IMG/VR virus record: IMGVR_UViG_3300044631_002030
Coordinates: 1-28,663 of that record
Length of the DNA: 28,663 nucleotides
From: a virus
Strand: one strand, 5' to 3'
Part shown: piece after piece, positions 1-25,978 of the stretch
Layout of the letters: every line of letters starts with the position of its first letter
Position numbering within the stretch: position 1 is the stretch's first letter
Notes under the pieces: generated by a model
The model's input: the letters and a program-made list of their open reading frames with translations, nothing else
Database searches by the model: none
What the model was told of the DNA's origin: nothing
Made by a program: the position numbers and the translations under genes

Positions 1-1504
1 TGCGCGCCGGCATGCGGGAGTACATCTTGGCGGCGTTCTGCCAGATGTGGCCGGCCGTGTTCGCGATGGTCTGGCCCGACTCAATGGCCACCGACACCAA
101 CGCCCCCGACGACATGGCGCCGAGCGGCTTGCCCGTGCCGTCGCCTTCCCACACGGCCTGTTCGGCCACGAAGCGCAACTCCTCGGGCACCTGCTCGTTC
201 AAGAACGAGACCAGCGCAGGGCCGTCCTCGATCTGCTCTTCGGTCAGCTTGACCAGCGCGCCGAGCTTCTGGAGCTTGAGGTCCAGCTGCCGCGTGGCGG
301 CCTGAGACTCGGTGTACGTGCCGTCCTCGGCCAACCAGTAGCCGCGCACGCCGCCGTTCCGGGCGCCGTTCGTGCGGGCCTCTTCCTTCACCAAAGTCTC
401 GACGTAGCTGTTGCCCGTGGTCACGGGACGCGTGGACACGCGCGACAGGATCTCGCCGCCCGTCATCGTCGCTTCGAGGAAGTTCTGCACCACCGGCGCC
501 GGGACTGCGAATCCGCCCTCTTCGCCCATGAGCGTATTCTGCGCCCGCGAGGCCGCCAGCCGCACGTCCACGTTGCCACCGCGACCGGCCGACACCACGG
601 CACGGAAGAAGTCGGCGCCGTCGTCGTTCCACGGCTTGTCGGCAGCGCGGTCGCGGCCCACTTCGACCACGGGGGCCGCGCTCGACATCGGCGCCCGCGT
701 CTCAGCGGCCGCGCGCAACGTCGCCAGCACTTCGGTGCGTGCCGCGTCCACCGTCACGCCGTTTACAATCCACTCGGCCGCCTTCTCGGGCATGCCGCCA
801 TCACGAGCCAGCGCCGCCAATTCGGCCGCGCGCGTGTCCGGAGTCAGGGCCACGCCCCGCTCCGACTGAATCTCACCCGCCATCTTCGACTCCGTCGAAA
901 GGGCCGGACCAACACCGGCCGATTGATCGAGCGGTGCGCCGGATGCGCTCCGCCCCACACCGACGGAATAGTCCGCCGGCACTGCTACGCTGGACGCTTC
1001 GTATAACGTCCAGCCGGTATAGCGACGCGTGATCGTGCCCGCCGCGTCTTTGGTTTGCGTGTACATGTCGCCCGGCCAATAGCCGATGCTGACCTTCTTG
1101 CGGATGCCGTCGCGCATGTCCTTGAACACCCACTCGGCCTCCGGATGCGAGCCGGGACGCGCCACGCCGCGCATCACGCGGTCGTCGCCAATCGCCACGC
1201 CGTCGATAATGCCGATCTGCGCCGACAACGTGTGGTCGAGGCAGAACGGCAAGCCGTCAGCGGCATAGCTCAAGTCGATGGCGTCGGGACTATGGTCGAG
1301 CACCTCCATGTAGTACTCGCCCGTGCGCCAGTCATACCGCTCCACCGGCGCCTCTGAGGACAGCGCCACGGCCACCGGGGCCATGTCTTGCGCGTCCTCC
1401 ATCTCCTCGCCGTTGCGGCGCGAGACGATCACCTCGCGGTAGCGCACGCCCGCCGGATTCTCGGCGGTCGCGGGCTGCCGTCGTTGTGCGTCCTGTGTCG
1501 TCAT
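1..1504 (-). CDS. Prohead protease-major capsid protein fusion (partial, runs off left edge)
   Basis: This is an open frame of at least 501 codons that reads off the left edge. Residues about 55-185 look like an HK97-type prohead protease (peptidase S78/U35 family): LDHTLSAQIG places a candidate catalytic His at about 91, VSIGY a candidate catalytic Ser at about 139, and LYEASSVAVPAD matches the conserved C-terminal part of the domain. From about residue 325 it becomes an HK97-fold major capsid protein, with EEGGFAVPAPVVQ and WEGDGTGKPLGAM typical of that family. The linker at 190-320 would correspond to the scaffold (delta) region. The role is to form the procapsid shell and cleave it during maturation. 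The start is the ATG overlapping the portal stop (ATGA), preceded by GGGGACGGC. No stop or frameshift separates the two parts in the bases I translated. Confidence 0.93.
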   Translation of the reverse strand, partial: MTTQDAQRRQPATAENPAGVRYREVIVSRRNGEEMEDAQDMAPVAVALSSEAPVERYDWRTGEYYMEVLDHSPDAIDLSYAADGLPFCLDHTLSAQIGIIDGVAIGDDRVMRGVARPGSHPEAEWVFKDMRDGIRKKVSIGYWPGDMYTQTKDAAGTITRRYTGWTLYEASSVAVPADYSVGVGRSASGAPLDQSAGVGPALSTESKMAGEIQSERGVALTPDTRAAELAALARDGGMPEKAAEWIVNGVTVDAARTEVLATLRAAAETRAPMSSAAPVVEVGRDRAADKPWNDDGADFFRAVVSAGRGGNVDVRLAASRAQNTLMGEEGGFAVPAPVVQNFLEATMTGGEILSRVSTRPVTTGNSYVETLVKEEARTNGARNGGVRGYWLAEDGTYTESQAATRQLDLKLQKLGALVKLTEEQIEDGPALVSFLNEQVPEELRFVAEQAVWEGDGTGKPLGAMSSGALVSVAIESGQTIANTAGHIWQNAAKMYSRMPAR

Positions 1505-3033
1505 GCCGTCCCCTTGCGGAGCGGCAACACGCGCCCCGTCGTGGTAGTGGTGTCGTCATCGGCCATGGCCGTGCTGTCCGCGGTCACGTTCACCGACAGC
1601 GGCACCGATTCCAGCGTGATGCCTTTCAAGAGCGCGTACGCCTTGGCGTCGGCGATTTCGTCGATGACTTCGTAGAAGTCGCGCCCCTTTTCGCTGCAAA
1701 TGCGTTGCGGGCTGGTGGTGCCCATGTTGAGCTCCATCGCCGCCGCCGTGGCGTCTTTCACGGGGTCAATCCACGGCCAGCCCGTGCACATGAACGTCGC
1801 GAACTGCGTGAGCTGCGCCGCGTCGTACGGCATCGCCCCGAGCGCCCCCGTGAGCGACGCCATGCGCACCCAATCGGCGAACGTGGGCGCAAGGAATTGC
1901 TCCACGAGCAAGTCCTGTTGGTGCATCTTGCTCTGCGCCATCTCGCGGAGGCGATCCGTGCGCATGCTGGAGAAGTTCACGTCGGACAGGTCGCCCGTGA
2001 GGCTGGCGTAACTGCGGCCGAACGCGCGCGCAATGCCGCGCTTCACGACCTTCATAAAGCCCGCGAAGTTCGCCGTGGGGTGCTTGGGTTCCCACGCTTG
2101 GAACTCGTAGCCGCCGGGCAGCACACGCGCCGAGCCGGGTTCGGCTTCCATCACCAGCGGCACCACGTTGCCGTCCGCGTCGCGTGGCGCCTCGATGCCG
2201 CCGCTCCCGTCTTTGTTGACGAAGAATCCGCCCTGCGCCGCCGCTAAGAGACTTTGATAGAGCTCGGCCTCAGTGTAGCGGTCGCCCAGCTTCCACGACA
2301 CGAGCGCGGGCGCAAACCATGGCACCCCGCGCCGCTGCCCGACGCGCGTGCGCTTGTACACGTGCCGCACGTCCTCGGCCGGCACGATCAGCTTGACGCG
2401 CCCAGGGAGACTCGGATGCCGGTCCCACACGTGATACGCGACCGGCTTGCCCGCCTCGTCGACCTCAACGCCCATGATGATGGCGCGTTGCGTGCCGTTC
2501 GGCGTGCGGTTCTCGCCCTCGTCCAGCTGGTCGGGATCGAGCACGCGGAGCGCGAAGCCGTACGGCCGCCGCGGGTCGCGCTCGCGCAAAGCGAGGAACT
2601 CGCCGTCTTGGATGACTGACCGGATCATCAGCCGTTGCAGCGCCGCGAGCGAGTAATCGCCCGACACGGTGCAGACGTCGCGGTGCGACCACGCCGCCCA
2701 CTCGGCCTCCACGCGGTCGTTCAGCGCGTCCATCGGCACGCCACGCGGGCGCCGCGCGCGGAATTGCAGCCGCGCCCCTGCCGCGCCGACGATATCGGCC
2801 TCAAAGTCGAGCAGAAGGCCCGCCGCTTCGCCGTTATCGCGCACCAATTGGCGCGATCTCGCGCGTAATTCGGCTAAATCGTAGCGGATTTCCTCGTTCG
2901 CGTCGGCGAGATCCGCAAACCAGCGCGCGATGATGCGCGAATTGGCCGCGCCGCCGTAGGTGCGCACCTTTGACGCGCCAACGCGTCCCGTGATTGCGGT
3001 CGTCAAATAGCGGAGTCGCGCGGCGAGCTTCAT
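1501..3033 (-). CDS. Phage portal protein, lambda family
   Basis: This 510-residue protein matches the lambda-type (gpB-like) portal family in length and sequence. Visible landmarks are a basic N-terminus, the segment VSGDYSLAALQRLMIRSV near 123-140, VIQDGEFLALRERD, the PDQLDEGENRTPNGTQR stretch with IIMGVEVD, and AYHVWDRHPSLPG, all typical of this family. The portal is the dodecameric ring at the capsid vertex through which DNA enters and leaves; it docks the terminase during packaging and the head-tail connector afterwards. The gene sits directly between the gpW-like gene and the protease-capsid gene, the usual lambdoid order, and overlaps both by ATGA. A GGGGATGCG Shine-Dalgarno-like stretch precedes its ATG. 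The C-terminus is Thr-rich (DDDTTTTTGR) and ends KGTA. Confidence 0.95.
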   Translation of the reverse strand: MKLAARLRYLTTAITGRVGASKVRTYGGAANSRIIARWFADLADANEEIRYDLAELRARSRQLVRDNGEAAGLLLDFEADIVGAAGARLQFRARRPRGVPMDALNDRVEAEWAAWSHRDVCTVSGDYSLAALQRLMIRSVIQDGEFLALRERDPRRPYGFALRVLDPDQLDEGENRTPNGTQRAIIMGVEVDEAGKPVAYHVWDRHPSLPGRVKLIVPAEDVRHVYKRTRVGQRRGVPWFAPALVSWKLGDRYTEAELYQSLLAAAQGGFFVNKDGSGGIEAPRDADGNVVPLVMEAEPGSARVLPGGYEFQAWEPKHPTANFAGFMKVVKRGIARAFGRSYASLTGDLSDVNFSSMRTDRLREMAQSKMHQQDLLVEQFLAPTFADWVRMASLTGALGAMPYDAAQLTQFATFMCTGWPWIDPVKDATAAAMELNMGTTSPQRICSEKGRDFYEVIDEIADAKAYALLKGITLESVPLSVNVTADSTAMADDDTTTTTGRVLPLRKGTA

Positions 3034-3566
3034 CGCATCCCCACGACGTTAAAAAGCGCCGGCGTGCCGAACGTGCGCGATTGCGCGGCCGCGAGCTGCG
3101 CGTCGCACTGCGCGATCACCGCGAGGCAGTCCTTGGGGCTGCGGAACATCGTCTGGCGCCCGAGGATCGTGGACATCTGCACGCCACCGCCTTCCATCAG
3201 CGTCACGAGGGCGCTTTGGGCGGCCTCTTTGAGCGTCTGCCAATAACTCACCCCCTGTCCGGCCGTCAGCGTCGCCACGTCGGCCGCTACCGTGAGCGTG
3301 CCCGTGGTCAGCGTCGTGGCCGTGGCGCCGGACGTGGCCCGCACGCGCCACTGATACAGCCCGGCGGCCAGTCCCGACGTCTCGGCGGCCGTCAACGCAA
3401 GGTCGTGCGCTGTGCCGTTCGGGGTCGACACCGTGACGGCGGTCGACGCGCCGGCCAGCGCGAGCGACAGCGTCCACGTCGGCGCCGGATGGTCCGGATA
3501 CACGAGCGTGAGCGCGACCGAATCGCCGGCCGTGATCTGCGAGGGAACGTGCGCCAAGGTGGTCAC
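3030..3566 (-). CDS. gpW-like head-tail joining protein with N-terminal beta domain
   Basis: This is a 178-residue protein starting at GTG, the first possible start after an in-frame TAG upstream. Residues 1-95 are Thr/Ala/Val-rich with alternating hydrophobics (ITAGDSVALTLVYPDH, GLYQWRVRATSG), which suggests an immunoglobulin-like beta sandwich. Residues about 108-165 resemble the short helical gpW family: YWQTLKEAAQSALVTLMEGGG, a turn with ILGRQTMFRSPKD, then a helix with LAVIAQCDAQLAAAQSR. The position between terminase and portal is where lambda carries gene W. A gpW-like protein would seal the packaged head and receive the tail. Lambda gpW is only about 68 residues, so the beta domain is an addition. 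Its ATGA overlap couples it to the portal. Assignment to gpW rests on position plus weak similarity. Confidence 0.6.
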   Translation of the reverse strand: MTTLAHVPSQITAGDSVALTLVYPDHPAPTWTLSLALAGASTAVTVSTPNGTAHDLALTAAETSGLAAGLYQWRVRATSGATATTLTTGTLTVAADVATLTAGQGVSYWQTLKEAAQSALVTLMEGGGVQMSTILGRQTMFRSPKDCLAVIAQCDAQLAAAQSRTFGTPALFNVVGMR

Positions 3567-3633: not shown

Positions 3634-3942
3634 CTATTTTGGCGTCGGCGCCTCGATGGCCCGCCCAATCCGACGCGACCACGGCAACCGAAACGCCCGC
3701 GAGCGGCGCGTCGTCGGCCGTGCGTCGAGGTAGCCGCGTTCACAGAGCAGGTTGAGCATCTGGCCGACGGTGGTTTCCCGAATCCGCATCTCAGACGCCA
3801 AGCTCGCGCCCTTCACTTCGCGATATTCTTGCACGTCGAGGCGGGCGGCCAAGTGCCACATCGTCAGCCGCGCGAGCGCCGGCATCTGCACGTCGCCGAG
3901 CGCCTGATGGACTACCGGATGCACCGCGTGGGCAATGCTCAT
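3634..3942 (-). CDS. Small winged-helix DNA-binding protein in the packaging module
   Basis: This 102-residue protein starts at the ATG that shares one base with the large terminase stop (TAATG). The frame is open further upstream inside the terminase gene, but that extension is low-complexity Arg/Gly and probably not translated. Residues about 19-85 look like a winged helix: PALARLTMWHLAARLDVQEY, a recognition-helix region (ASEMRIRETTVGQMLNLLCE), then RGYLDARPTTRRSRAFRLP as a basic wing. This is the shape of MarR- or replication-regulator-like DNA-binding proteins. It lies between large terminase and gpW-like genes, a place where lambdoid phages normally have no regulator. It could regulate late genes or help recognise packaging sites; neither is shown. 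Confidence 0.7.
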   Translation of the reverse strand: MSIAHAVHPVVHQALGDVQMPALARLTMWHLAARLDVQEYREVKGASLASEMRIRETTVGQMLNLLCERGYLDARPTTRRSRAFRLPWSRRIGRAIEAPTPK

Positions 3943-5813
3943 TAGCGCCACCCCTTCCGCCGCGGAATCCATGTGCCGCTCGGGCGTGGTGGGGTTGGGG
4001 TTGGTGGCTCCGAATCGACCGCCGCCGCGCGGGCCGCTGCCGCTTTGGCGATGTCGAGCCCGAAATACGTGACCATCGCCGAGGCGGCCGCGAGGCCGTA
4101 CACCACGCCGTCGAGGGCTTCGTTGGCCGCGCGGGCGTCCCGCTTGCGCCACACCGTGGCCATGCGGCCGCCGTGGCGTACCGATTCGGCCGACTCCGCG
4201 GTAAGCTGTTCGTAAAACGCCGGATCAAGGGTTGACGCAAAGTGCAACGCGCCAGGGCCGCCCGGTGGCACGGCCACGCGCACCCCGTGCCCCAAAAGCA
4301 TGTCCTTTGCCGTGTCGGTGCCAACCGTCCACGGCATCCGCTTCCGGCGGTCGGCGCTTTTGTTGGGCTTGGTCATGAGCTGCCGACCGGGGCCGCCGAC
4401 GCCTTTTACGCCGAACACGCGCGTTGATGGGAACCGCAGCTTCCACCGGTCCACGTGCAACCACACCACGTCGGGCAGATAGCCCGTGTCGCACACGATG
4501 TACCCGACCGGCAGCCCGTGCGTCATCGTCTCGATCTGCCGGCACGCGGCCTCCCACGGCCCGACCGTGGACGGGTCGCCCTCGTGCGCGTCCCACGACA
4601 AGACAAACGCTTCGTTCTTCGGCGCCCACCCGACCGTAATGAGCTCCAGCCGGTCCTGCTGCACGTCCACCGACACGCCCAAGAGCCCCACGTCAGGCGG
4701 CACGGTCTCAAGCGGCTCCGCGCGCGCTTGCAGTGTGTGGACCTCGATGCGCTCGCGTCGGATATAGTGCGGCTCTGCCAGCACGTGCGTGACGAACACC
4801 TTGAGCTTTTCGGGGTCGCGCTGCGCATCGGTCCAGAGCGTCATGATCTGCGCCCATGTGCGCCACGGCGAGATCAAGCCATTCAGGTCAAACCCGACCA
4901 ACGCGCGCCCCGGTTGCGACGCCACCCACTTCCCACCGCGCAACATGGCCGGCTTCTCAAACTCCGGAATGAGCACCCCGCACGCACGGCACAAGTACAT
5001 CGCCGTTTCGGGGATGATCTGATTCGCCGCATCGCGGTCGCACACCAGTCGATAGGTGCCGTCCGGATCTTTCCACGTAAACGGCTCCGCATGGCCGCAC
5101 GCCGGACACGCCACGTGAAACTGCCGGCGGTCGCTCCGCCCGAGCGCGGCCGTGATCGGGCAGGTGGCCAGCTCACCCGGCGTTGAACCCTGCACCCGCT
5201 TGGCGTTCCAGAACGTCGCCGTGCGCTCGGCGCCCAAGTCCCACGGGTCGCCCTGGTGCTTGGCGTCGAGGGTCCAGCCGCTCCGCTCGTCGCCAAATAC
5301 CCGCCGCGACGGCCGTGACCGGAGCCCCGAGGGCGCATTGGCGCCGACCGCGACCAACCACCCGCCGCGGAACACCTTGCGCTGCATGGTGTCGTCCGAC
5401 GTGCGCCGGCCGCCTTCTGACCGGATCGCCCCGCGCAGTCGCCGCGATTCGGCCAACATCGGGTCGATGCGCTCCTTCATCCAGCTTTTGGCCATGCCGT
5501 CGTTGGGCTGGATCACGATGAGCCCCGATGGGTCGTGGTCGATGCAGAACCCGACCGCTTGGTTCAGCAGCTCGGTGAAGCCGACCTGCGCCGGCTTGTT
5601 GAAGATCACGTCGTTGTGCCGCTCGTCGCAGATCACGTCGAGGATCTCGGTAAGGTACGGCGCGCGGTTGGTCGAGTACGGGCCGCCTTCCGCCGCGCCC
5701 GAACTTCTCGCAATCCAGCCGAACTGGTTTGCCCATTGGCTGCCGGTAAGCCGTTCCTTGGGCGTCCAGATCTCCGACGCCAGTCGGCCGGCCCGTTGTG
5801 CGAGGTTGCTCAT
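3942..5813 (-). CDS. terL: Terminase large subunit, GpA family
   Basis: This 623-residue protein is a GpA-type terminase, the ATPase-nuclease that cuts concatemeric DNA and pumps it into the prohead. Seen: a Walker A-like motif KPAQVGFTE at about 73-81 (lambda gpA has a comparable non-classical version), VAVGANAPSGLRS at 154-166, a Walker B-like RRVFGDE at about 170-176, and paired zinc-binding cysteines CPACGH (236-241) and CRACG (275-279). The C-terminal nuclease half has VSVDVQQDRLE near 380-390 and CDTGYLPDVVW near 441-451, which supply acidic residues for metal binding. Length is close to lambda gpA (641). It overlaps the small terminase gene (ATGA) and the following winged-helix gene (TAATG), so the three are probably translationally coupled. 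Confidence 0.97.
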   Translation of the reverse strand: MSNLAQRAGRLASEIWTPKERLTGSQWANQFGWIARSSGAAEGGPYSTNRAPYLTEILDVICDERHNDVIFNKPAQVGFTELLNQAVGFCIDHDPSGLIVIQPNDGMAKSWMKERIDPMLAESRRLRGAIRSEGGRRTSDDTMQRKVFRGGWLVAVGANAPSGLRSRPSRRVFGDERSGWTLDAKHQGDPWDLGAERTATFWNAKRVQGSTPGELATCPITAALGRSDRRQFHVACPACGHAEPFTWKDPDGTYRLVCDRDAANQIIPETAMYLCRACGVLIPEFEKPAMLRGGKWVASQPGRALVGFDLNGLISPWRTWAQIMTLWTDAQRDPEKLKVFVTHVLAEPHYIRRERIEVHTLQARAEPLETVPPDVGLLGVSVDVQQDRLELITVGWAPKNEAFVLSWDAHEGDPSTVGPWEAACRQIETMTHGLPVGYIVCDTGYLPDVVWLHVDRWKLRFPSTRVFGVKGVGGPGRQLMTKPNKSADRRKRMPWTVGTDTAKDMLLGHGVRVAVPPGGPGALHFASTLDPAFYEQLTAESAESVRHGGRMATVWRKRDARAANEALDGVVYGLAAASAMVTYFGLDIAKAAAARAAAVDSEPPTPTPPRPSGTWIPRRKGWR

Positions 5814-6325
5814 GCGTCGTCGTCCTCATCGTCGGGCGTCGTCATGGCTTCGGCCTGTTCGGCCAGTCCGCCCAAGATCTGCGCCGCCATCTCGTCAAGC
5901 ACCGTGGCCGCCTCAAGCGGCGTCTTCAGCCCCACGACCCGCAACGCAAAACGCGACCGAAGGCCGGCCACCTCGTTGCGTACGGCTGACGCTACCCGCT
6001 CAACCGCCGCGTCCATCTCAACCACCGGCGCCAATTCGCCGCGCAGCTTGGCGGCCGCCATCTCGGAGCGGTCAGCGTCGGCCGACATTTTCCGCGCCCG
6101 CGCGGCCGCCTCGTCCTTGTCGCCGATGCTCCGCGAGGCTTCGGCCTTCGCCACGTCGCGCGCGCGCAGCGCCACCGCGCAATCCGGCTGCTTGTACTGG
6201 AGCGCGCTGCCCTTCGTTTTGGTCGTCAGCACGCTCGGCTCCTGCGCCCGGATGTATTGAAGCGTTCGGACTGCGAATCCGGTTTCGTCGGCCAACTGAT
6301 TAAGGGAAACCCATCGGACGCTCAT
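5810..6325 (-). CDS. terS: Terminase small subunit-like protein
   Basis: This 171-residue protein lies immediately upstream of the large terminase, the standard position for the DNA-recognition subunit of the packaging motor. The start at MSVRWVSLNQLADETG is chosen because its ATG overlaps the HNH stop (ATGA); the open frame continues upstream inside the HNH gene but is not needed. Residues about 5-30 form a MerR/Nu1-like HTH (LNQLADETGFAVRTLQYI). Residues about 50-100 are Ala/Arg/Lys/Asp-rich and probably a long coiled coil (RDVAKAEASRSIGDKDEAAA). The tail is acidic (TPDDEDDDA), as in many terminase small subunits, where the C-terminus contacts the large subunit. Assignment rests on position, HTH and architecture rather than strong motifs. 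Confidence 0.8.
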   Translation of the reverse strand: MSVRWVSLNQLADETGFAVRTLQYIRAQEPSVLTTKTKGSALQYKQPDCAVALRARDVAKAEASRSIGDKDEAAARARKMSADADRSEMAAAKLRGELAPVVEMDAAVERVASAVRNEVAGLRSRFALRVVGLKTPLEAATVLDEMAAQILGGLAEQAEAMTTPDDEDDDA

Positions 6326-7248
6326 GCGGCACGCTCGGCCAGCTTTCGCTGGCATGGTTCGGGAATACGCTCTAGCCATTCCGCATAGGGCGTCGTGTGC
6401 TTCTTCACGTTGCACCGAAGGCAGCACACCATCACGTTGTCGATGCTGTGCCACCCACCTAGAGACAAGGGCTCCATGTGGTCCAAAGACTTGTCTTGGG
6501 CCTTCATCGGCTGCCAGCAGTAGGGGCACGTTTTGGCTTTCGCGAACAGTTTACGGACGACCTCTTTCGTGAGAGTGCCGTCGTCACGGCCATCGGCGCG
6601 GTTTCCCCACCGCTTTCCGGATGACCGGAGCTTTTCGCGTTGGCGGAACACTTCGTCTACGCGGTACTTGGCCTTGTATTCAACCGCATCGCGGGACACT
6701 CCGTCGTCGGCGCAGCGCACGTCCAGCAACCGCACGAGGGTCGCTTTTACAATTTCTAGCGCGCCCTCTCGAGTCGTCGGAGGCTCGCCGTGGTGACGAA
6801 AACGACCAAGCTGCACGAGCGGGCGGTTGCGGCGCGGGCTTGTCCCGCGCTGTTTCGCGTACCACTCCTCGCGACTGAGAAGGACACGGCCTTTATTTGC
6901 ATACTCGCGCTGTCGATAGGCTCTCACCTGTTCAGGCGTTAGCTGAGCCTTTCTTGCACGATGGCGAGCACGGCGGCACTGGTCGCACTCGCGCGGCTGT
7001 GCTTTGTTTTTTCGCTTTGCTAACGGGACGGACGCTTCGCACTTTGCGCAGTGCGGGGAAGGGCGCTCCCACCCCCATTTCTTTGCTAAAACTTCAACGG
7101 TATTAGCCGAACAGCCGATGTCTTGCGCGATTTCGGCGCACTTCATGCCCGATTCGTACAGTTTTTTGCCTTGGCTCAGTTGATCTGCCTTGCCAGACCA
7201 ACGGCCTTTCTTGGCGGGAGCAAGTGCAGGATATGCTTGGATGATCAT
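6322..7248 (-). CDS. HNH endonuclease next to the terminase genes
   Basis: This is a 308-residue protein from the ATG giving MIIQAYPALAP; a TTG further upstream would add a Gly/Pro-rich 24-residue extension that crosses a hairpin and is unlikely. Residues about 27-58 resemble an HTH (KLYESGMKCAEIAQDIGCSA). Cysteines 67/70 and 88/91 (CAKC, CDQC) make a zinc knuckle. The C-terminal HNH fold is clear: CPYC at 241-244, DHMEPLSLGG with His257, then the HNH Asn and CCLRCNVKKH at 275-284. HNH proteins encoded beside terminases are known in many cos and headful phages and assist DNA cleavage during packaging; that role fits here, although a free-standing homing endonuclease is possible. The gene looks less GC-rich than its neighbours. 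ATGA overlap joins it to the small terminase. Confidence 0.9.
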   Translation of the reverse strand: MIIQAYPALAPAKKGRWSGKADQLSQGKKLYESGMKCAEIAQDIGCSANTVEVLAKKWGWERPSPHCAKCEASVPLAKRKNKAQPRECDQCRRARHRARKAQLTPEQVRAYRQREYANKGRVLLSREEWYAKQRGTSPRRNRPLVQLGRFRHHGEPPTTREGALEIVKATLVRLLDVRCADDGVSRDAVEYKAKYRVDEVFRQREKLRSSGKRWGNRADGRDDGTLTKEVVRKLFAKAKTCPYCWQPMKAQDKSLDHMEPLSLGGWHSIDNVMVCCLRCNVKKHTTPYAEWLERIPEPCQRKLAERAA

Positions 7249-7372
7249 ATATGGATATTGATGGCCGCTGCGCGGGACCCACGGGGCGCCCCCCTCCAGG
7301 GGGGACCCGCGACCCGGCAATAGTTGCCGATGTGGATAACTCTGAGGAGATCCGTGTGGAAAACTCGTCCCG
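7249..7372. other. Intergenic gap with GC hairpin (7289-7304)
   Basis: This is the longest gene-free stretch in the window, between the stop of the gpZ-like gene and the HNH start. It holds a perfect inverted repeat of six C and six G around a TCCA loop at 7289-7304 (the T and A can pair for a seventh base pair). A weaker outer pairing of 7271-7280 with 7302-7311 is possible. No U-rich tail follows on the minus strand, so a classical intrinsic terminator is not supported; a processing site, attenuator or mRNA stabiliser for the packaging genes is equally possible. I see no convincing promoter, although an AT-rich patch (7236-7258) precedes the HNH start. Confidence 0.45.
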
Positions 7373-8477: not shown

Positions 8478-9397
8478 GCGGCAGCCCCACTTGGCCACGT
8501 GCGGCCGTCTGGAAACGCCGCGTCGATCCGATCTGCCCAGGCTGGCACCGGTTTCTCCGGATCGCCGCGCATGCGGGCCCGTTCGTTTTGCTCACGGATC
8601 GTGCGGAGCAGGTCGGCATCCTGCTCGTCGGTGGTCTGTTGCAACGCATACCGCCCACGGTCCACCGCCTTGGCCCGCTTGACGAAGCCGCGGAACAGGC
8701 TCGGGTTCGGGTTCACGTGGAGTCCCTGAGCCACGAAGTCTTCGACGGCGGCCGCCAGCCGTTCTGGGCTTGCAGGTCGGTTGCCGTCCATGCTCAGGCC
8801 TGACGCCATGCCGCGGATGATGCCGGCCCATACGTCGGGGTCGGCCGTCTGCGCGAACAGCTTGGCCAGCGCCATGTGTCCGGTCGGGGCCACCATCGGC
8901 AACACGTCGCGAAGCCCCGATGACGACGGACAGGGAATTACATCATCGTCAGTGTTACTAGTAGTTACGTCTCGTCTCGTCTCGTCTACCTGACCGTTTT
9001 GGCGCCGTCCGCTGTTTTGGCGCGCGGACGGCGCTGTTTTGGCGCGCGCCGTTTCGGCGCCGTTTCGCATGGCTCGCTTGCGCTCAATGTCGGATTCGGC
9101 CTTGCGCAACGCCGCCCCGTTGTGCTTTTCCCACGCGCGGACGGCCCCCTTCTCGTCGCAGAGGTGCTGCCGAAAGGCCGCCCCAAAGACGCCCATCTTC
9201 CCGCCCCAGCCGGCCCATTGCTCAAGCACCACGTTATCTACATGGGCCACGTCGCCGTCACGAACGTGATCGGGGAACTCCATAAGCACGCAGCACACCA
9301 GCCCCACGGCTTCCGGCACCCGCACCTTGCACGCCGAGGCAATGGCGCCCATGCGCGGGTCGGTCTTCATTTTGGTCGCGATCCGGATCCAGTTCAT
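8474..9397 (-). CDS. Replisome organiser-like replication protein
   Basis: This 307-residue protein starts at the ATG overlapping the helicase stop. The N-terminus WIRIATKMKTDPRMGAIASA and the following 60 residues (VGLVCCVLMEFPDHVRDGDV, WAGWGGKMGVFGAAFRQH) match the winged-helix N-terminus common to phage replication initiators and replisome organisers, which bind origin DNA and load helicase. Residues about 100-160 are a low-complexity hydrophilic linker (Ala/Arg/Gln/Thr). The C-terminal half has FAQTADPDVWAGIIRGMASG and LAAAVEDFVAQGLHVNPNPSLFRGF, a helical region resembling DnaD/DnaT-like C-terminal domains. Its position between the primase-helicase and RusA supports a replication role. 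Which protein it loads and where the origin lies cannot be told from sequence. Confidence 0.75.
   Translation of the reverse strand: MNWIRIATKMKTDPRMGAIASACKVRVPEAVGLVCCVLMEFPDHVRDGDVAHVDNVVLEQWAGWGGKMGVFGAAFRQHLCDEKGAVRAWEKHNGAALRKAESDIERKRAMRNGAETARAKTAPSARQNSGRRQNGQVDETRRDVTTSNTDDDVIPCPSSSGLRDVLPMVAPTGHMALAKLFAQTADPDVWAGIIRGMASGLSMDGNRPASPERLAAAVEDFVAQGLHVNPNPSLFRGFVKRAKAVDRGRYALQQTTDEQDADLLRTIREQNERARMRGDPEKPVPAWADRIDAAFPDGRTWPSGAAA
8968..8987. repeat. Pentanucleotide tandem repeat, four copies of CGTCT
   Basis: Four exact copies of the 5-base unit lie inside the linker of the replisome organiser-like gene, where they encode part of VDETRRDV on the minus strand. Just beside it, at about 8995-9060, a GTTTTGGCGC-type unit recurs with about 21-base spacing and encodes the Ala/Arg/Gln-rich linker. 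Because five is not a multiple of three, loss or gain of one copy would shift the reading frame and truncate the C-terminal domain. Confidence 0.9.
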
Positions 9398-11109
9398 GCG
9401 CTCTCCCGGTCATACCATGCGGCCTTCGGGGCCGATGGGGTCTGTTCTAACAGTTGCAGGTTGAGCGTGTCCATCCGGACGGCAATCGACGCCGACGGCC
9501 CGTGCCGGTTCTTTTCGAGCAGGACGCTGAAGTTCTTGCCGTAGAGGTCTTCGGTCTTGGCGCTCTGGTCAATCAAAAGCACTTGGTCGGCGTCGTTCTC
9601 GATAGCCGATGAACCGGCGAGCCCGAAGATGGTCGGTGGTGCGCCCTTCTCCGACGTGGTCGAGCGGTTGAGCTGCGACAGCAGGAGCGTGTTTACATCC
9701 TGCCGATAGGCCACCGACTGCACGGCCGCAGACACCTGGCGCATCGCGTCATCCAGCTTGGCGCCCGCCACGCTCACCAGCTGCGCATAGTCCACGATCA
9801 CCAGACGACATCCGGCATCGACGGCCCGCTGCATTAACTGATGCACGGACGGCAAGTCTCGCGTCGGGCGTTCGGCCATCCAAAGGTGCGCCCCTGACAC
9901 CTCGAGCTTGTCCATGAAGCCGTAGGACGCCGCCGTAAACGCCCCCGGGTCAAACGAGGCGCCCGGCTCCAGATCACGCAGCTTTCGCCCCGTGGCAATG
10001 CCGAGAAGCCGAAGCAGCAGTTGCTCGCGGGACATTTCGAGCGAGACCCAGCCGACGCTGTGGCCGTTCCGCAAGGCTTCAGCGGTCATGTTGAGCGCGA
10101 TGAGCGACTTGCCGGCGCCCGCCCCACCTGCGGCCACGATATGCCAGCCCCGCGCCAAGCCTTGGCCACCGCCGTACATCCGACAGGCGCGATTCCACAC
10201 GCTCCACATGGTCGGCATGGCGTCGACGGGCTTGGACGCCTTCTCCATCATCCCTTCAAAGATGCCGACCGTAATCGGCACCAGCGGCGACGACTCGCGC
10301 GGCGAAGATTCGACCGGCGTCGGGTGGTTCCGCTGGTGCGTCTGTCCGATCGACTGCACCAGCGCCACCACTTCGGTATCATCGAGCGGCGGGCTGACCT
10401 TGGTCGCGTTCACGGCGCGCACCAGCTCGAGCACCTCGTCGGCGCCGTGTTGCTTGGCAAACAGCCGCCCCGCGTACGCCGTCAACGCTTGGTTGCGGCC
10501 GCCCGACCCGACGCCAGTAAAGATCACATCAACGGCCGACTGTGGCGCCGCCGCCAACACAGGTTGAATCGATCCCACGACGCCCGTAATGCGCTTCGCA
10601 ATCGATTCGGGCAGCGCGGCCGGCGCCAGCTTGCCGGGGTGCTTCCCGTTTGCCCATCGATACGAGCCGCCGTTCGGATGGATGGACGGCGGCGCGACGA
10701 TGTACCCCCCTTCGGCGCGCACGTCGAGCTGAGGGCCGAGCTTGCCGGCGCTGTTCCGGATCTCTGGGGCGCCGAGGAAGAGCAGGTGACGACCCTTTCC
10801 CGTGTGTGACTCCACGGTGTCGGGCAGGGTGCCGTACAGCGCGAGCGCCGCTTCGCCGTCTACGCCGTCCACATCGACCACCACCAGCCCCGAGGCGCCG
10901 CCCGTCGTGAGCCCGATGTTGGCGTCGGGGTACTTGGACCACCACGCCGTCACGGTCTCCGCGTCGGCGCTTGCGTCCTTGAGGCCGTTGCCGCCTTTCG
11001 CCTTGGAGAGCAGCGGGATTTTTTCACGTGGAACAAGCGGGAACACGGTCCATCCGAGGGACGCATAGAACAGCGCCGCAGCGCCCAAAGAGCCCTTCGG
11101 AAAGGTCAC
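9394..11109 (-). CDS. Primase-polymerase / DnaB-like helicase fusion
   Basis: This is a 571-residue protein from the GTG that overlaps the upstream stop (GTGA); a longer frame exists but lies inside the preceding HNH-like gene. Residues 1-180 are a bifunctional primase-polymerase (Prim-Pol, archaeo-eukaryotic primase fold): GWTVFPLVP, VVVDVDG with Asp79/Asp81, SHTGKGRHLLF with the conserved His, and EGGYIVAPPSIHPNG. Residues about 200-260 form a linker helical domain. Residues about 285-571 are a RecA-fold replicative helicase of the DnaB type: Walker A GGAGAGKS (328-335), VSLEMSREQLLLRLL (355-369), Walker B LVIVDYAQLV (436-445), LLLSQLNR and DADQVLLIDQ. It would synthesise primers and unwind the phage fork. 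The gene is followed directly by the replisome organiser. Confidence 0.95.
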   Translation of the reverse strand: MTFPKGSLGAAALFYASLGWTVFPLVPREKIPLLSKAKGGNGLKDASADAETVTAWWSKYPDANIGLTTGGASGLVVVDVDGVDGEAALALYGTLPDTVESHTGKGRHLLFLGAPEIRNSAGKLGPQLDVRAEGGYIVAPPSIHPNGGSYRWANGKHPGKLAPAALPESIAKRITGVVGSIQPVLAAAPQSAVDVIFTGVGSGGRNQALTAYAGRLFAKQHGADEVLELVRAVNATKVSPPLDDTEVVALVQSIGQTHQRNHPTPVESSPRESSPLVPITVGIFEGMMEKASKPVDAMPTMWSVWNRACRMYGGGQGLARGWHIVAAGGAGAGKSLIALNMTAEALRNGHSVGWVSLEMSREQLLLRLLGIATGRKLRDLEPGASFDPGAFTAASYGFMDKLEVSGAHLWMAERPTRDLPSVHQLMQRAVDAGCRLVIVDYAQLVSVAGAKLDDAMRQVSAAVQSVAYRQDVNTLLLSQLNRSTTSEKGAPPTIFGLAGSSAIENDADQVLLIDQSAKTEDLYGKNFSVLLEKNRHGPSASIAVRMDTLNLQLLEQTPSAPKAAWYDRESA

Positions 11110-11603
11110 ACGGCCTCCTGGTTGGCCGCTTTCACGGACAGCCACAGCCGACGCAGGTTCGCGGCGCCAAGGTACCCCAGCAATTGCGCCGCGTGCGCGG
11201 CTGGATCGTATTCGGTACACAGTCCAGGCGTCACAATGGTGTGCCACTGTTCGTGACACGGCCGGCAGAGGTACACCGTCGGCCACGATTCGCACGCCTC
11301 ACCGAAGAACTTGCGAGGGGCGATATGATGCACCTCGCACGATGCCCATTTGTTACAGCGTTCGCAGTGCCGAAACCACGCCGTCGGCCGGATCGGCGCC
11401 GCCTCAAGATCAAGGCCCGCGAGTTTTTCATGATCAGACGGCAGCCAGAGCCCGGGGTGCCACAGCAGTTCCTTCGTCACCCATCGCGCGCACTGGTCGC
11501 ACCACGCCCCGAATTGCGGCAACGCGCCGTTGCGCGCCAAAAACGCGCCGCTGTGACGGCACTCGCGAGGCCGCGTTGTCAAAATGCGTCCTAGTGATTC
11601 CAT
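11106..11603 (-). CDS. HNH-like zinc-binding protein
   Basis: This 165-residue protein has a strong Shine-Dalgarno (GAGGTGAG) before its ATG. Cysteine pairs CDQC (35-38) and CERC (about 80-83) are followed by CEVHHIAPRKFFGE, an HH motif that matches the first His of HNH nucleases, then YLCRPCHEQWH as the second zinc pair and final His. Together they indicate an HNH-type fold, probably DNA-cutting, although the central Asn seen in most HNH motifs is not obvious here. Possible roles are a nicking enzyme for replication or recombination, or a homing nuclease. It overlaps the small upstream ORF by 13 bases and the primase-helicase by GTGA, so it is co-translated with the replication genes. Confidence 0.75.
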   Translation of the reverse strand: MESLGRILTTRPRECRHSGAFLARNGALPQFGAWCDQCARWVTKELLWHPGLWLPSDHEKLAGLDLEAAPIRPTAWFRHCERCNKWASCEVHHIAPRKFFGEACESWPTVYLCRPCHEQWHTIVTPGLCTEYDPAAHAAQLLGYLGAANLRRLWLSVKAANQEAV

Positions 11604-11788: not shown

Positions 11789-12291
11789 GCCGCCCCCCGT
11801 GGATGCGCGAAGTCCGTCGCCGTCTCCACGTGCGCCGTCGTCGCCGCCGGCAACCCCAACGCCCGCGCCCTTATGGGGTGGATCCATGCCCCCGGCGTCC
11901 ACTCCTCGTCGCGGTGCGGCCGTCCCTGCGCCCGCTCGCCGTCCACCGCCACAATCCAATGCCGCACGACCGCGCCCGTCGTCACGGTGCGAATCCGTCC
12001 CGCCGCCACCTCGCGGCCAATCGTGCGGTCCACAACCGACGGCGCCTTGTCATGCAGCGCCGCCCGCACGCCTTCGGCCGTGATGCCGGGCGAGCTGCGC
12101 ACCACCGCCCGAATCCGCGCGATGATGGGCTTCCGGTTCGCCTTAGGCGTCACCAGCGCCGGACCCAACGCCCAGCCGCGCCGCATGCGGTCGCGCAACG
12201 TCTCGCGGTCCACCACGCACCGGTCCTTCACCGCTTCCCACTGTTCCGCGGTATCGCGGAAGTCGCTGTCGCGCCTGCGGCTCGGGCTCAT
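11785..12291 (-). CDS. Winged-helix protein, third of three paralogues
   Basis: This 168-residue protein starts at the ATG overlapping the methyltransferase stop (ATGA). The N-terminal 45 residues are basic and include a short helix-turn (EAVKDRCVVDRETLRDRM). Residues about 55-112 form a winged helix: PIIARIRAVVRSSPGITAEG, VRAALHDKAPSVVDRTIGRE, then AAGRIRTVTTGAVVRHWIV as the wing. It shares with the two genes at 13037 and 13474 the PG(I/A)T turn, the GR-x-x-RT-type wing and a C-terminal -RGAA; with the 13474 protein it also shares a W(V/I)HP(Y/I)R patch (GAWIHPIRAR). Such proteins bind DNA, often as repressors. Target and function are unknown; the link to the neighbouring methyltransferase is positional. 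Confidence 0.75.
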   Translation of the reverse strand: MSPSRRRDSDFRDTAEQWEAVKDRCVVDRETLRDRMRRGWALGPALVTPKANRKPIIARIRAVVRSSPGITAEGVRAALHDKAPSVVDRTIGREVAAGRIRTVTTGAVVRHWIVAVDGERAQGRPHRDEEWTPGAWIHPIRARALGLPAATTAHVETATDFAHPRGAA

Positions 12292-13040
12292 GGTGCCCCC
12301 AAGTCAAGCGTTTCCTGAGAACACCGGCGTGCGGCGATTTCGCAAAAATGCTCGGACACCTCGCACCCAATAGCCCGCGCGCCGACGTTCTTGGCGGCTA
12401 AAATCGTTGTGCCGCTTCCCATGAAGGGGTCTAGCACCGTCCCGCCAGCGGGCACGATTTCAAGCATACTCTGCATTAGCTCAATCGGCTTTTGCGTGAT
12501 GTGCTCGCGAGCCGTACCGCTCGGAACGTTGTAACTATAAAAGCCCGGAAACCCGCGCCCTGTAAGCTCTCTCGGCCCATTTGTTCCCCAGACGACATAC
12601 TCGCACTTATTGGCCCAGCGGCCTTGGGTTGGCCGTGCGCTAGGCTTGTGCCACGGCACAATGCCGCGCCATACGTAGCCGCCCGACTGCAGCCCCATAG
12701 TGGCAACTGGCAGTTGCCGCCAATCGCAGAAAAAAGCGGCAATCCCTCCGTCTACAATTACGCGTTGCGAACCGTGCAACCATGCCCCGCACCAAAACAG
12801 CCACCCCATCTGATCACGGCTGTCCCCGCTAAAGGCTTCAAGATTGCCGCCGCTTTCGCTGCCCGTCTGAACATACTTGGTGTGGACATCTTGCAAACGA
12901 TCACCGCGTATCATGCCCCCAGACGAATACGGTGGGTCAGTCATTAGAACATCCACGCTATTAGACGGCAGTTCGCAAAGGACGGACAACGCTTCCCCGT
13001 GGTAAATCGTCACCGAGCCGTCTTGATAGTACGGCTTCAC
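12288..13040 (-). CDS. DNA methyltransferase (N6-adenine or N4-cytosine)
   Basis: This 250-residue enzyme starts at the GTG overlapping the upstream stop (GTGA). The catalytic motif IV TDPPYSSGG is at 34-42 and the AdoMet-binding motif I DPFMGSGTT at 204-212; motif IV preceding motif I marks a beta-class amino-methyltransferase of the N6_N4 family (DpnA-like fold). HITQKPIELMQ at about 180-190 is the usual motif before the AdoMet loop. DPPY is commonest in adenine-N6 enzymes but is not exclusive. No cognate restriction gene is visible, so it is an orphan, possibly protecting phage DNA from host restriction or marking it for packaging or regulation. The coding DNA looks more AT-rich than its neighbours, which suggests recent acquisition. 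The recognition sequence cannot be read from the protein. Confidence 0.95.
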   Translation of the reverse strand: MKPYYQDGSVTIYHGEALSVLCELPSNSVDVLMTDPPYSSGGMIRGDRLQDVHTKYVQTGSESGGNLEAFSGDSRDQMGWLFWCGAWLHGSQRVIVDGGIAAFFCDWRQLPVATMGLQSGGYVWRGIVPWHKPSARPTQGRWANKCEYVVWGTNGPRELTGRGFPGFYSYNVPSGTAREHITQKPIELMQSMLEIVPAGGTVLDPFMGSGTTILAAKNVGARAIGCEVSEHFCEIAARRCSQETLDLGAP

Positions 13041-13477
13041 GCCGCCCCCCGCGCAAACGGCGACCCGTAGTCCACCATCGGCGCCCGTCGCATCAGCACG
13101 ACCGGCGGCGCCACCACCACCGGCGCCACGGCGACCACGGCGGCCATCGTCACGGCGTACGTCGGCCGCTCGCCCTTGGCGCCCTTGGCCACAAGCGTGC
13201 GCGTCATGCGCCCTTCGCGGCACTCCCGCGCCACGGCGTAGTAGACCTGCAACGGCATGACGTCAAGCCGCGCCGCGAGGTCGGCCGTGGTGATGCCTGG
13301 CGTCTCCGTCACGAGCTCGCGCACGCAGTCGGCGATGCTGGTGTACGATCGCGTTGGCGTCGTCGCCGCCTTCAGCGCGTCCCACCCGTCCAGCACACGA
13401 TGCCGGAATACGTGGTAGGGCACCACGGCCCGCGACTCCACGGCTGGCCATTGTTGGCTTACGCGGTAGGATCTCAT
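13037..13477 (-). CDS. Winged-helix protein, second of three paralogues
   Basis: This 146-residue protein begins at the ATG overlapping the previous stop (ATGA). After a region rich in aromatics (YRVSQQWPAVESRAVVPYHV), residues about 44-95 form a winged helix: SIADCVRELVTETPGITTAD, LAARLDVMPLQVYYAVAREC, REGRMTRTLVAKGAKG. The PGIT turn and GRMTRT wing align with GITAEG and GRIRT of the 11785 protein. Residues about 115-130 are a Val/Ala/Pro-rich stretch (VVAVAPVVVAPPVVL), too polar-broken for a clear membrane helix. It ends DYGSPFARGAA, close to DYASPLRGAA of its upstream neighbour. It directly precedes the methyltransferase and is coupled to it by GTGA, so joint expression is likely. Function beyond DNA binding is not known. 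Confidence 0.75.
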   Translation of the reverse strand: MRSYRVSQQWPAVESRAVVPYHVFRHRVLDGWDALKAATTPTRSYTSIADCVRELVTETPGITTADLAARLDVMPLQVYYAVARECREGRMTRTLVAKGAKGERPTYAVTMAAVVAVAPVVVAPPVVLMRRAPMVDYGSPFARGAA

Positions 13478-23392: not shown

Positions 23393-23557
23393 CTACGCCG
23401 CCGCGATCAAACGCGCGATGGTGTCCTCAGTTTCCGCAATGCTCTGCTCAAGCACCGCCATGGCGGCCGCGTCACCGGCCATCGTGGCCGTCGCCATCCG
23501 GTTGTTCAAATGCGCCAGGCGTGCTTGTGCCAGCGAGATCAGTTCAGCGATGGTCAT
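23393..23557 (-). CDS. Very small helical protein (54 residues)
   Basis: Found by reading between larger genes: ATG at 23557, TAG one base before the next start. It reads MTIAELISLAQARLAHLNNR, MATATMAGDAAAMAVLEQSI and AETEDTIARLIAAA, two helices joined by a short loop (MAGDAA). Short proteins of this kind, 'SLAQARLAHLxxxRxxA', are frequent in phage tail modules downstream of fibre or structural genes and have no known role. Position and lack of gaps support it. Confidence 0.7.
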   Translation of the reverse strand: MTIAELISLAQARLAHLNNRMATATMAGDAAAMAVLEQSIAETEDTIARLIAAA

Positions 23558-23561
23558 GGCG

Positions 23562-25175
23562 TCACACGAGGGCGATAAGTTCTTGCGCGACCGAACTCAG
23601 GTGCGATTGCAGCAGGACCACGTCGTACGTGTCGGCCGTGTCAATGGCCGCATACGCCGCCATCCGTTGGCCGCCGGCCGCGACGCCGCTTTGGAGAAAG
23701 TCGGTCGCGGTGTGCGGACTGAGCACGCGGTTCTTCACGTCGAATCGGAACATTTGGTTGATGCCCGAGGCGACGTAAATGTTCAGGTACGCAAACCGCC
23801 CCTCCTGCCCAAACGGCGAATAGCACCCCGTCGTCCCCACCGTGTTGGCCACGGCACCGTCATAGACTACCGCGCCTGTCCACGTCCCCGTGATGCTGCC
23901 CGCAATGTCGAGCGTGTCGAGCGTGGCGGCCGATCCGCGGAAGAAGAACTGCACCGAGTGCCGTGCGTTGCGCCCGACGTCCGGCTGCATCCCGAACGAT
24001 GGCGCCCACAGCCCTCCCGCCGCGTTGGCGGCCGTTGCCGCGCCGAAATACGTTGTGCTCCACGCGTTGGCCACGATGCTGTTCGTGCCGTTATTGATCG
24101 TGGCGTCCATGTAATTGTACGTGTACACCGTCGTCGTGGCCGACGACCGCAGCAACATCAGATTCGGCAGCTCGATGACGTACTTGGCCGTCGCGCTGGG
24201 CTGCGTCGTCCATGCCGTGCCGAGCGTGTACACCGGCGAGGGTCCGGCCGTGTGCGACGCGATCACGCGCCGCTGCCCGACGGCGGCCGTCGTCGTCGTG
24301 TCCTCCACGATGCGGATCTGGAAGTTGCGGTACTCGTTCGCGGCGACCACCGCGTCGCCGAGCGTCGCCTGTCCCGTCAACGTGGACGCGCCCGCCGCCG
24401 TGGCCGTCAGCGCGGATCGCGTCACGACGCCCGTGTCGTACACGTAGGCGCCCTTGATCATGCCTTCGCCAGGTTGGCAATTGTACGGCGTGTATTGCTC
24501 GTCGAGCACCAACAGCGCCGAGTCGGTCGCAATCGTGGCCGGCAGTCCGGTCGTGCTCAGGCCCGTCGACAGCGTGTTGGTCCCCACCTCAAAGCTGCGC
24601 CAGATGTTCGCGGCCGTGACGCCCGCGCCCAACATGAACACGCGCCCCGCGACAATCTCGTAGCGCGAGCCGGTCGCCGGCGTGAAGCCAAACGAGGAGA
24701 GCACGTCAATGACCGGCGTCGTGCCGGACGTGTTGCCGACGATGTACCGTTCGGCCGTTTTGCCGGCCACGGTGTCGATGATGCGTATCTTAAAGCCGTA
24801 ATCGCCCGACCCGCCGCGATTGGCCAGCATGTTGGTGCCCACCGCCGTCGGGAGCGCGGTGGAGAGCGTCACGCGCGTCGTCGTCGCCCCGGCGGCAATG
24901 GTGCCCACCAGCCCGAAGGAGGGCGCGAAGCCCGCCGTAGCGCCGATACCGAACGTGCCCGCCAACGCCGGCGACTGCACAAAATTCCACGCCTTCGTGA
25001 CGATGTTAAAGCGGTTGAGCACGGTGTTGCTGGCGATCTGGTACACGAACGGATTGCGCGACACATCGCTGCGCAGGTCGCTTACGAACCCTTGCCCCGC
25101 CGCGTGCGCGTTCGGTGCCGGTGGCACCTGCGCCCAGATCAGCCGGTCAATAACTTTTTTGAACGTGTTCGGCAT
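23562..25175 (-). CDS. Phage structural protein (537 residues), probably tail
   Basis: This is a long, Thr/Ala/Gly-rich, largely beta protein with few charged residues. Seen: an N-terminus FKKVIDRLIWAQVPPAPNAH, a repeated 'LSTALPTAVGTNMLANRGGS' type strand-turn pattern, PATIATDSALLVLDEQYTPY, and a C-terminal part GRNARHSVQFFFRGSAATLD, GCYSPFGQEGRFAYLNIYVA, INQMFRFDVKNRVLSPHTAT. The last section resembles baseplate- or fibre-like phage proteins with a 'MFRFDVKN' ending. It is preceded by the two small beta-rich proteins often found together in such clusters (25188 and 25589). Exact function (tail tip, fibre or capsid spike) cannot be decided by eye. Confidence 0.75.
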   Translation of the reverse strand: MPNTFKKVIDRLIWAQVPPAPNAHAAGQGFVSDLRSDVSRNPFVYQIASNTVLNRFNIVTKAWNFVQSPALAGTFGIGATAGFAPSFGLVGTIAAGATTTRVTLSTALPTAVGTNMLANRGGSGDYGFKIRIIDTVAGKTAERYIVGNTSGTTPVIDVLSSFGFTPATGSRYEIVAGRVFMLGAGVTAANIWRSFEVGTNTLSTGLSTTGLPATIATDSALLVLDEQYTPYNCQPGEGMIKGAYVYDTGVVTRSALTATAAGASTLTGQATLGDAVVAANEYRNFQIRIVEDTTTTAAVGQRRVIASHTAGPSPVYTLGTAWTTQPSATAKYVIELPNLMLLRSSATTTVYTYNYMDATINNGTNSIVANAWSTTYFGAATAANAAGGLWAPSFGMQPDVGRNARHSVQFFFRGSAATLDTLDIAGSITGTWTGAVVYDGAVANTVGTTGCYSPFGQEGRFAYLNIYVASGINQMFRFDVKNRVLSPHTATDFLQSGVAAGGQRMAAYAAIDTADTYDVVLLQSHLSSVAQELIALV

Positions 25176-25187
25176 GCCGCGCCCTCG

Positions 25188-25589
25188 TTACGTGATAAGT
25201 GTGCGGACGCAATCGCGCCACGCGGACAGATTGGAACCGCGCGTGAGGATCTGCGCCTGATCGCCGCCCAACGCGGTGACCGTGTTGACCGTGTTGACCG
25301 CGATGACCGTCGTCACCGTCGTGATTGTGCCGCTTTCAAGCGTCGCCGTGACGCGTTGCCGTTGTATGGAGCGGTCGTAGCCTTGCGGGCTGGACAGGAT
25401 TTGGTGAATCCGCGACAGCTCTTCCGCGGCGTACCTATCAAGCACCGGCAACGGCGCGTCGTCGCTCGCGTCCACGGCCGTGCCGTCCACGCCGTGTGTG
25501 AGTTTCATGCGCTGAAACAGCACGCCGCCGATCTCGTCGGCCGCGACGACCGCGCCCGTTCCTGGCGTGTACCCGACGTTGTCGGCCAT
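25188..25589 (-). CDS. Conserved structural-module protein with Thr/Val repeat (133 residues)
   Basis: The start shares one base with the upstream stop (TAATG). The N-terminus MADNVGYTPGTGAVVAADEI and GGVLFQRMKLTHGVDGTAVD follow a pattern I know from many phage tail clusters, in which a TxGxGxxVAADEI sequence precedes a 'QRxKL..G.DG.A.DA' segment. The middle has VLDRYAAEELSRIHQILSSP. A run of Thr/Val triplets (TTVTTVIAVNTVNTVTAL) follows, encoded by a 9-base tandem unit, and the end is WRDCVRTLIT. The function is unknown, though these proteins always accompany tail-fibre genes. Confidence 0.75.
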   Translation of the reverse strand: MADNVGYTPGTGAVVAADEIGGVLFQRMKLTHGVDGTAVDASDDAPLPVLDRYAAEELSRIHQILSSPQGYDRSIQRQRVTATLESGTITTVTTVIAVNTVNTVTALGGDQAQILTRGSNLSAWRDCVRTLIT

Positions 25590-25978
25590 TAGTTGGTCGA
25601 GCTCAGCGTAAACGAGGTCACCGTGACCTGCTGGCCCGCCACGATGTTAATGTTGTCGAGCGTGAGATCGCCGCCGCCGCCGGTCGCCGTGACGGTGCCT
25701 TCCAAGATGTTGCTCCCGCCGACGATGCGGAAATATCCGCCCGCACCGGAGGAATCCGCGCTCGCGTCCTGCCACGTCCCTTGCGCGTTCTTGGTGCCGC
25801 CGCTCGCGGCCGCAAAGGCGTCAGCCGGTAGCGTGATCGTCGCCAGCACGGTCCCCGTCGCCGCGTTGCCCGCGCCCGGTGCGGTGCCGGTGTAGATCGT
25901 CAGCGATCCGCTGTTGAACGTCGTGTCCAGCCCGTCGAGGAGCGTGTTCTTCAGCGTCGTATTGAGCGTAATAGCCAT
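25589..25978 (-). CDS. Conserved beta-rich structural-module protein (129 residues)
   Basis: This starts at ATG with GAGGATCTC upstream. MAITLNTTLKNTLLDGLDTT, FNSGSLTIYTGTAPGAGNAA, TGTVLATITLPADAFAAASG and GTWQDASADSSGAGGYFRIV form a recognisable phage pattern: 'TIYTG.APGAGNA.TGT.LAT..LPADAF'. Short loops rich in Gly and Ser and a C-terminal VTATGGGGDLTLDNINIVAG suggest a jelly-roll or Ig-like fold. It is found with the preceding 133-residue protein and may be a decoration or tail-appendage protein. Function unproven. Confidence 0.75.
   Translation of the reverse strand: MAITLNTTLKNTLLDGLDTTFNSGSLTIYTGTAPGAGNAATGTVLATITLPADAFAAASGGTKNAQGTWQDASADSSGAGGYFRIVGGSNILEGTVTATGGGGDLTLDNINIVAGQQVTVTSFTLSSTN

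Follow-up and report, generated by a model that had tools for sequence, protein, structure and literature searches.

A conserved internal start signal in phage genes that fuse protease and capsid points to a probable second precursor without the protease

The stretch of DNA analysed here (the window) is a complete IMG/VR virus record of 28,663 bases, and its minus strand carries a prohead protease, a delta-like region and a capsid protein joined in one gene. We propose that this single gene probably specifies two proteins, as judged from its sequence: a 635-aa protease-delta-capsid protein and a 428-aa protease-free precursor beginning at Met208. The initial annotation had reasoned that fusion places one protease on each capsid subunit. 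That reading is probably wrong, because a conserved Shine-Dalgarno (SD) sequence and ATG at Met208 predict a second capsid precursor that lacks the protease. Protease/capsid fusion is itself already known, being represented by NCBIfam NF045541, PHROG 617, PHROG 4523 and annotated phages; the new element is the internal start signal in the linker. The proposal builds on direct observations of the frame, its domains, the conservation of catalytic residues, the start signal, the synonymous constraint upstream of it, and capsid genes that start at the same boundary in split relatives.

Results

The fused gene occupies positions 2 to 1504 of the minus strand, with its ATG at 1504, and is stop-free over 501 codons. 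The record stops before the gene does, leaving about 134 codons of its 3' end missing. A second contig (L002) is 100% identical across the 501 residues and carries the whole gene, of 635 aa. The start ATG overlaps the stop of the portal gene (1501 to 3033, minus strand; PF05136) in the arrangement ATGA. Head genes on the minus strand follow the order terminase small (5810-6529), terminase large (3942-5813), head-tail joining (3030-3566), portal and fused gene. The protease and capsid parts shared a single open frame at all 18 homologous loci, three of which run off the contig end, and this rules out a frameshift or sequencing error as the source of the fusion. Hence the uninterrupted protease-linker-capsid frame of the initial annotation, which had given no strand, is borne out at 501 codons on the minus strand, and the linker error that it had named as a possible refutation is excluded.

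Other genes of the window include an HNH endonuclease adjoining the terminase (6322-7320, minus strand), a 633-aa protein with primase-polymerase (PF09250), PriCT and DnaB-type helicase domains (9394-11295, minus strand) and a DNA methyltransferase (12288-13223, minus strand; PF01555). A 537-aa open frame without a Pfam or PHROG match (23562-25175, minus strand) lies opposite a 724-aa open frame on the other strand (23418-25592). A scan of genome contigs for a host by way of prophages found no relative.

The fused gene encodes a predicted S78-type prohead protease, whose domain was placed at residues 40-185 (950 to 1387, minus strand) by PF04586 (Peptidase S78) and structure models. PF04586 was not among the matches of the whole 501-aa protein at E ≤ 0.001. 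When the protease part of L002 was searched in isolation, PF04586 scored 21.7 bits (cut-off 21), and it matched 27 of 29 aligned homologous protease domains at E ≤ 0.01. His91 (1232 to 1234), Ser139 (1088 to 1090) and Glu169 (998 to 1000, all minus strand) were invariant in three alignments of 22, 27 and 29 sequences, which upholds the earlier choice of His91 and Ser139 as catalytic candidates. The HK97 gp4 protease uses His, Ser and Glu, and by analogy we take Glu169 to be a possible third catalytic residue. A protease-only structure model had a mean pLDDT of 84.7. In a fold search with this model, herpesvirus proteases and T4 gp21 (gp21 probability 0.95-0.99) ranked at the top, with none at E ≤ 0.001 and TM < 0.5, which hints at an assemblin-like fold but does not establish it. 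A PDB profile search using the protease alignment gave no match. A further in-frame ATG at residue 41 (1382-1384, minus strand), noticed in L002, is preceded by GGAGG. Residues 1-39 were low-confidence in the full-length model, whereas residues 1-20 were not so in the protease-only model; the true N-terminus may lie at the residue 41 ATG.

Beyond the protease, the full-length model (mean pLDDT 68.8, pTM 0.46) contains a disordered linker with pLDDT < 50 at residues 186-223 (836 to 949, minus strand). It is followed by a delta-like helical region at residues ~224-323 (536 to 835, minus strand), with modelled helices at 224-269 and 297-323, which we infer to have a scaffold role. The cleavage interval suggested by the initial annotation, residues ~185 to 325, would coincide with this predicted linker and delta-like region. 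An HK97-fold capsid domain extends from residue ~330 (2 to 517, minus strand). PF05065 matched residues 330-487 with 56.1 bits (cut-off 24.2), TIGR01554 matched L002 with 126.2 bits (cut-off 27.5), and HK97-fold capsids ranked first in a fold search with the capsid part.

The internal start codon, Met208 (ATG at 881 to 883, minus strand), lies inside the disordered linker, and a GGAG (890 to 893, minus strand) stands 6 nt upstream of it. We examined this signal in 116 loci (L002-L118 minus the split locus L035), clustered at < 60% identity into 54 clusters; the protease end was located by motif in 109 of 117 loci and by profile alignment in 8. Strict SDs were defined as GGAG, GAGG or AGGA. An in-frame ATG occurred 6-53 aa past the protease end in every cluster (54/54). 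Since a Met within any 60-aa zone is unremarkable alone (42.2 of 54 expected), the SD is the distinguishing feature. The best-paired boundary ATG had a strict SD in 45 of 54 clusters. Among Met codons of the capsid domain part the figure was 27 of 584, and among other 60-aa stretches taken from these genes it was 26 of 430 (Fisher 8e-36 for the comparison with these stretches). Taking simply the first Met, with no selection by SD, gave 43 of 54 clusters, or 97 of 116 loci when unclustered. Chance occurrence of a start signal is ruled out by these control stretches and internal Met codons. A strict SD was missing in nine of the 54 clusters, and L020 and L066 had practically none at all.

Mean SD pairing was -7.06, versus -4.70 in 200 synonymous-codon shuffles, among which the lowest mean of a shuffled set was -5.69. 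The shuffle test was weak gene by gene, with 9 of 54 at p ≤ 0.05 and a value of 0.49 for the window gene (as L002). Across 19 genes, the primary and internal SDs paired with means of -5.62 and -5.75, respectively. We therefore rejected the idea that the internal SD is the stronger one, and equal mean strengths imply that the ratio of long to short product is not readable from the SDs. The window's internal SD also falls in the loop of a hairpin adjoining the ATG (885 to 899, minus strand; perfect 6-bp stem, 3-nt loop), which could mask the SD or tune internal initiation. This hairpin was present in the window and L009, with z scores of -0.88 and -1.02 relative to shuffles, and was absent from L017. 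It was dropped as a regulator on these grounds.

Conservation of the linker peptide was rejected as a cause of the signal in the S78 set, in which the Met alone is widely shared. No other position around it had a residue common to more than 21 of the 54 clusters, and the SD core was not tied to one codon phase (33, 7 and 5 cases in the three phases). Where the residue was the same, codons -8 to -1 were 80-100% identical, versus 54% elsewhere, across 210 related-gene pairs that are non-independent. In these pairs codon +1 was 33% identical, and codons +6 and +7 were also raised (89 and 84%). We grouped the 210 pairs into 15 components, 14 of which could be scored: five scored at or below 0.05 and three above 0.4, with a combined value of 8e-6. 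In the window's own component (19 loci), upstream codon identity was 1.00 (n = 493) versus 0.65, and no other block equalled it. These codon identities indicate constraint on synonymous codons upstream of Met208, which is clearest in the clade of the window.

A tblastn search matched 64 phage records. Among 21 that were fetched, 18 were fused, one was split (Dulem virus 34) and two, Dagobah and a Bradyrhizobium phage, matched in the capsid part only and have a separate protease gene. The suggestion that fusions occur in other phages is therefore sound. PHROG 617 (fused head proteins) spans residues 39-582 of the 635 in L002 (E 1.6e-46), covering protease and capsid parts. NF045541 (prohead protease/MCP fusion) matched residues 44-282 only, with 121.4 bits, below its curated cut-off of 525. 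Phages Murka, PPpW-3, phiHAP-1, VP882 and ep3 have the same domain order as the window gene, also after the portal in the head operon, but the named-phage fusions differ in sequence (17-24% full-length identity between L002 and 17 members of alignment A1). In ep3 (KM360178), a phage of E. coli, the full fusion has 682 aa, and a precursor made from its internal Met would have about 467 aa. A possible further member is phage B8b, whose 685-aa product named 'Peptidase U35 phage prohead HK97' was covered to 42.7% by 937 spectra in virion peptide data (PMC4294664).

In the parts of the literature available to us, fused protease-capsid genes are described for phage Murka and for Rhodobacter phages, and such fusions are called 'common in small-genome siphoviruses' for Microbacterium phages. 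None of the fetched annotations of named-phage fusions marks an internal start. Within the open-access literature, with subscription papers largely outside this scope, the portions available mention no internal start for fused protease-capsid genes. The same applies to the passages on fusions available from PMC6950654, PMC5155283, PMC8601537, PMC10892653, PMC9671004, PMC4294664, PMC6606914 and PMC10695390.

Split relatives place the start of the capsid gene at the same boundary. A search with the Dulem protease kept 80 loci: 49 have split genes, 29 have a fused gene, and the remaining 2 could not be classified because of their shortness. In 47 of the split loci (L202-L248), the protease stop lies 24-40 aa past the end motif, which was undetected in three. 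In 39 of these 47, a capsid ATG with a strict SD was found at -8 to +18 nt relative to the stop codon of the protease; seven of the remainder had no start found and one had only a poor start. Outside this clade, split locus L250 had no SD-bearing start nearby and L259 had one at +22. In the second fused set (29 loci), a script detected a strict SD in 16, and checking 9 of its 13 misses by eye raised the count to 20. A single family contains both split and fused arrangements: phrog_4523, the fused family of RcSwan, is also matched by the capsid proteins of Dulem virus 34 and L203. RcSwan has an SD and ATG at residue 214. The stand-alone capsid proteins of Dagobah and the Bradyrhizobium phage, at 438 and 456 aa, are close to the predicted 428 aa, and their N-terminal parts are similar in length to that of the predicted product.

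A boundary start also occurs in fusions built from other parts. In the Pseudomonas phages MD8 and F10, a single gene encodes protease, scaffold and capsid together (PMC8508860). Both resemble the window gene in combining all three, but their protease is ClpP-type and their capsid belongs to a different family (phrog_133). Both have an SD and ATG at residue 220, and section 9 of PMC8508860, on the MD8-type fusion, does not mention an internal start. We examined 18 of 82 loci with ClpP-type fusions. All 10 with a recognised protease end had an SD and an ATG 22 aa later, and 7 of the 8 without one were inspected, each with an SD at the matching boundary ATG (7/7; L196 was the eighth). Altogether, the boundary SD and ATG were found in 17 of the 18, with L196 remaining. 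Among these ClpP-type fusions, the peptide encoded around the SD is conserved too and may itself account for the signal, and the first Met past the protease (+16) often lacks an SD. Given these features and the relatedness of the loci, an independent origin is supported but unproven. At the MD8-type locus L119 (4371-6452), a stronger SD (AAGGAGGAG) precedes an ATG at residue 185, which falls within the last part of the protease domain; this signal does not occur in all relatives.

Discussion

The two-product explanation would operate as follows. Ribosomes initiating at 1504 would make the long protein, consisting of protease, linker, delta and capsid (635 aa), while those initiating at the internal ATG at 883, with its own GGAG, would make the delta-capsid precursor (428 aa). 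The two forms would co-assemble through their common parts, such that the protease enters the prohead on some capsid subunits. After closure of the shell, the protease would cut off the linker and delta parts, its own tether included. Use of the internal start, the minority status of the long form, co-assembly and the cleavage steps are what we infer from the arrangement of the gene.

We considered whether the long fusion might alone be made, with every capsid subunit bearing a protease until maturation, as the initial annotation read it. In its favour, the primary start is preceded by a good SD and shares bases with the stop of the portal gene. We nonetheless consider this reading unlikely, as it leaves both the conserved internal SD and ATG and the upstream synonymous constraint unexplained, and split relatives produce the capsid precursor separately. 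Less probable still is an internal start that no longer serves the capsid, being left over from a formerly separate capsid gene or having some other purpose. Those same split relatives illustrate a possible origin for it, and in the window's clade a hairpin can form around the SD. However, a relic should decay, yet 45 of 54 diverged clusters keep the internal start and the codons preceding it are constrained. We give almost no weight to the possibility that two separate genes were wrongly joined during sequencing or assembly: separate genes do occur in relatives, but the fused arrangement is present at all 18 homologous loci and in 18 of the 19 named phages fetched. Production of both a long and a protease-free form is thus the reading we prefer.

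Protease dosage is a problem for fused genes because the shell would be crowded if every subunit brought a protease with it. If two products are made, the built-in second start would solve this without a second gene and would explain how the fusion can be viable and widespread. It would also correct annotations that give a single long major capsid protein. It would, moreover, bring within reach of testing how many protease copies a head needs and how they enter.

Internal in-frame starts that yield a protease-free form with a common C-terminus are found in lambda C/Nu3, Mu I/Z and herpesvirus UL26/UL26.5. These pairs share only the scaffold, whereas the shared part of the window gene includes the capsid protein. 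The window gene resembles nested pairs of the lambda C/Nu3 kind in that its sequence places a ribosome-binding site and an in-frame start codon within the gene, at a domain boundary. The order of protease followed by delta and capsid is that of HK97 genes 4 and 5, and the predicted 428-aa product is presumably laid out like HK97 gp5. The HK97 genes are separate neighbours (PMC8508860), in contrast to the fused gene of the window. More broadly, we consider it reasonably likely that tailed-phage protease-capsid fusions are generally two-product genes, in which an embedded start keeps a protease-free precursor and leaves the protease covalently attached to a minority of subunits, and that the arrangement arose with proteases of the S78 type as well as the ClpP type. 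Such genes would then correspond in phages to herpesvirus UL26/UL26.5, but with the capsid protein included.
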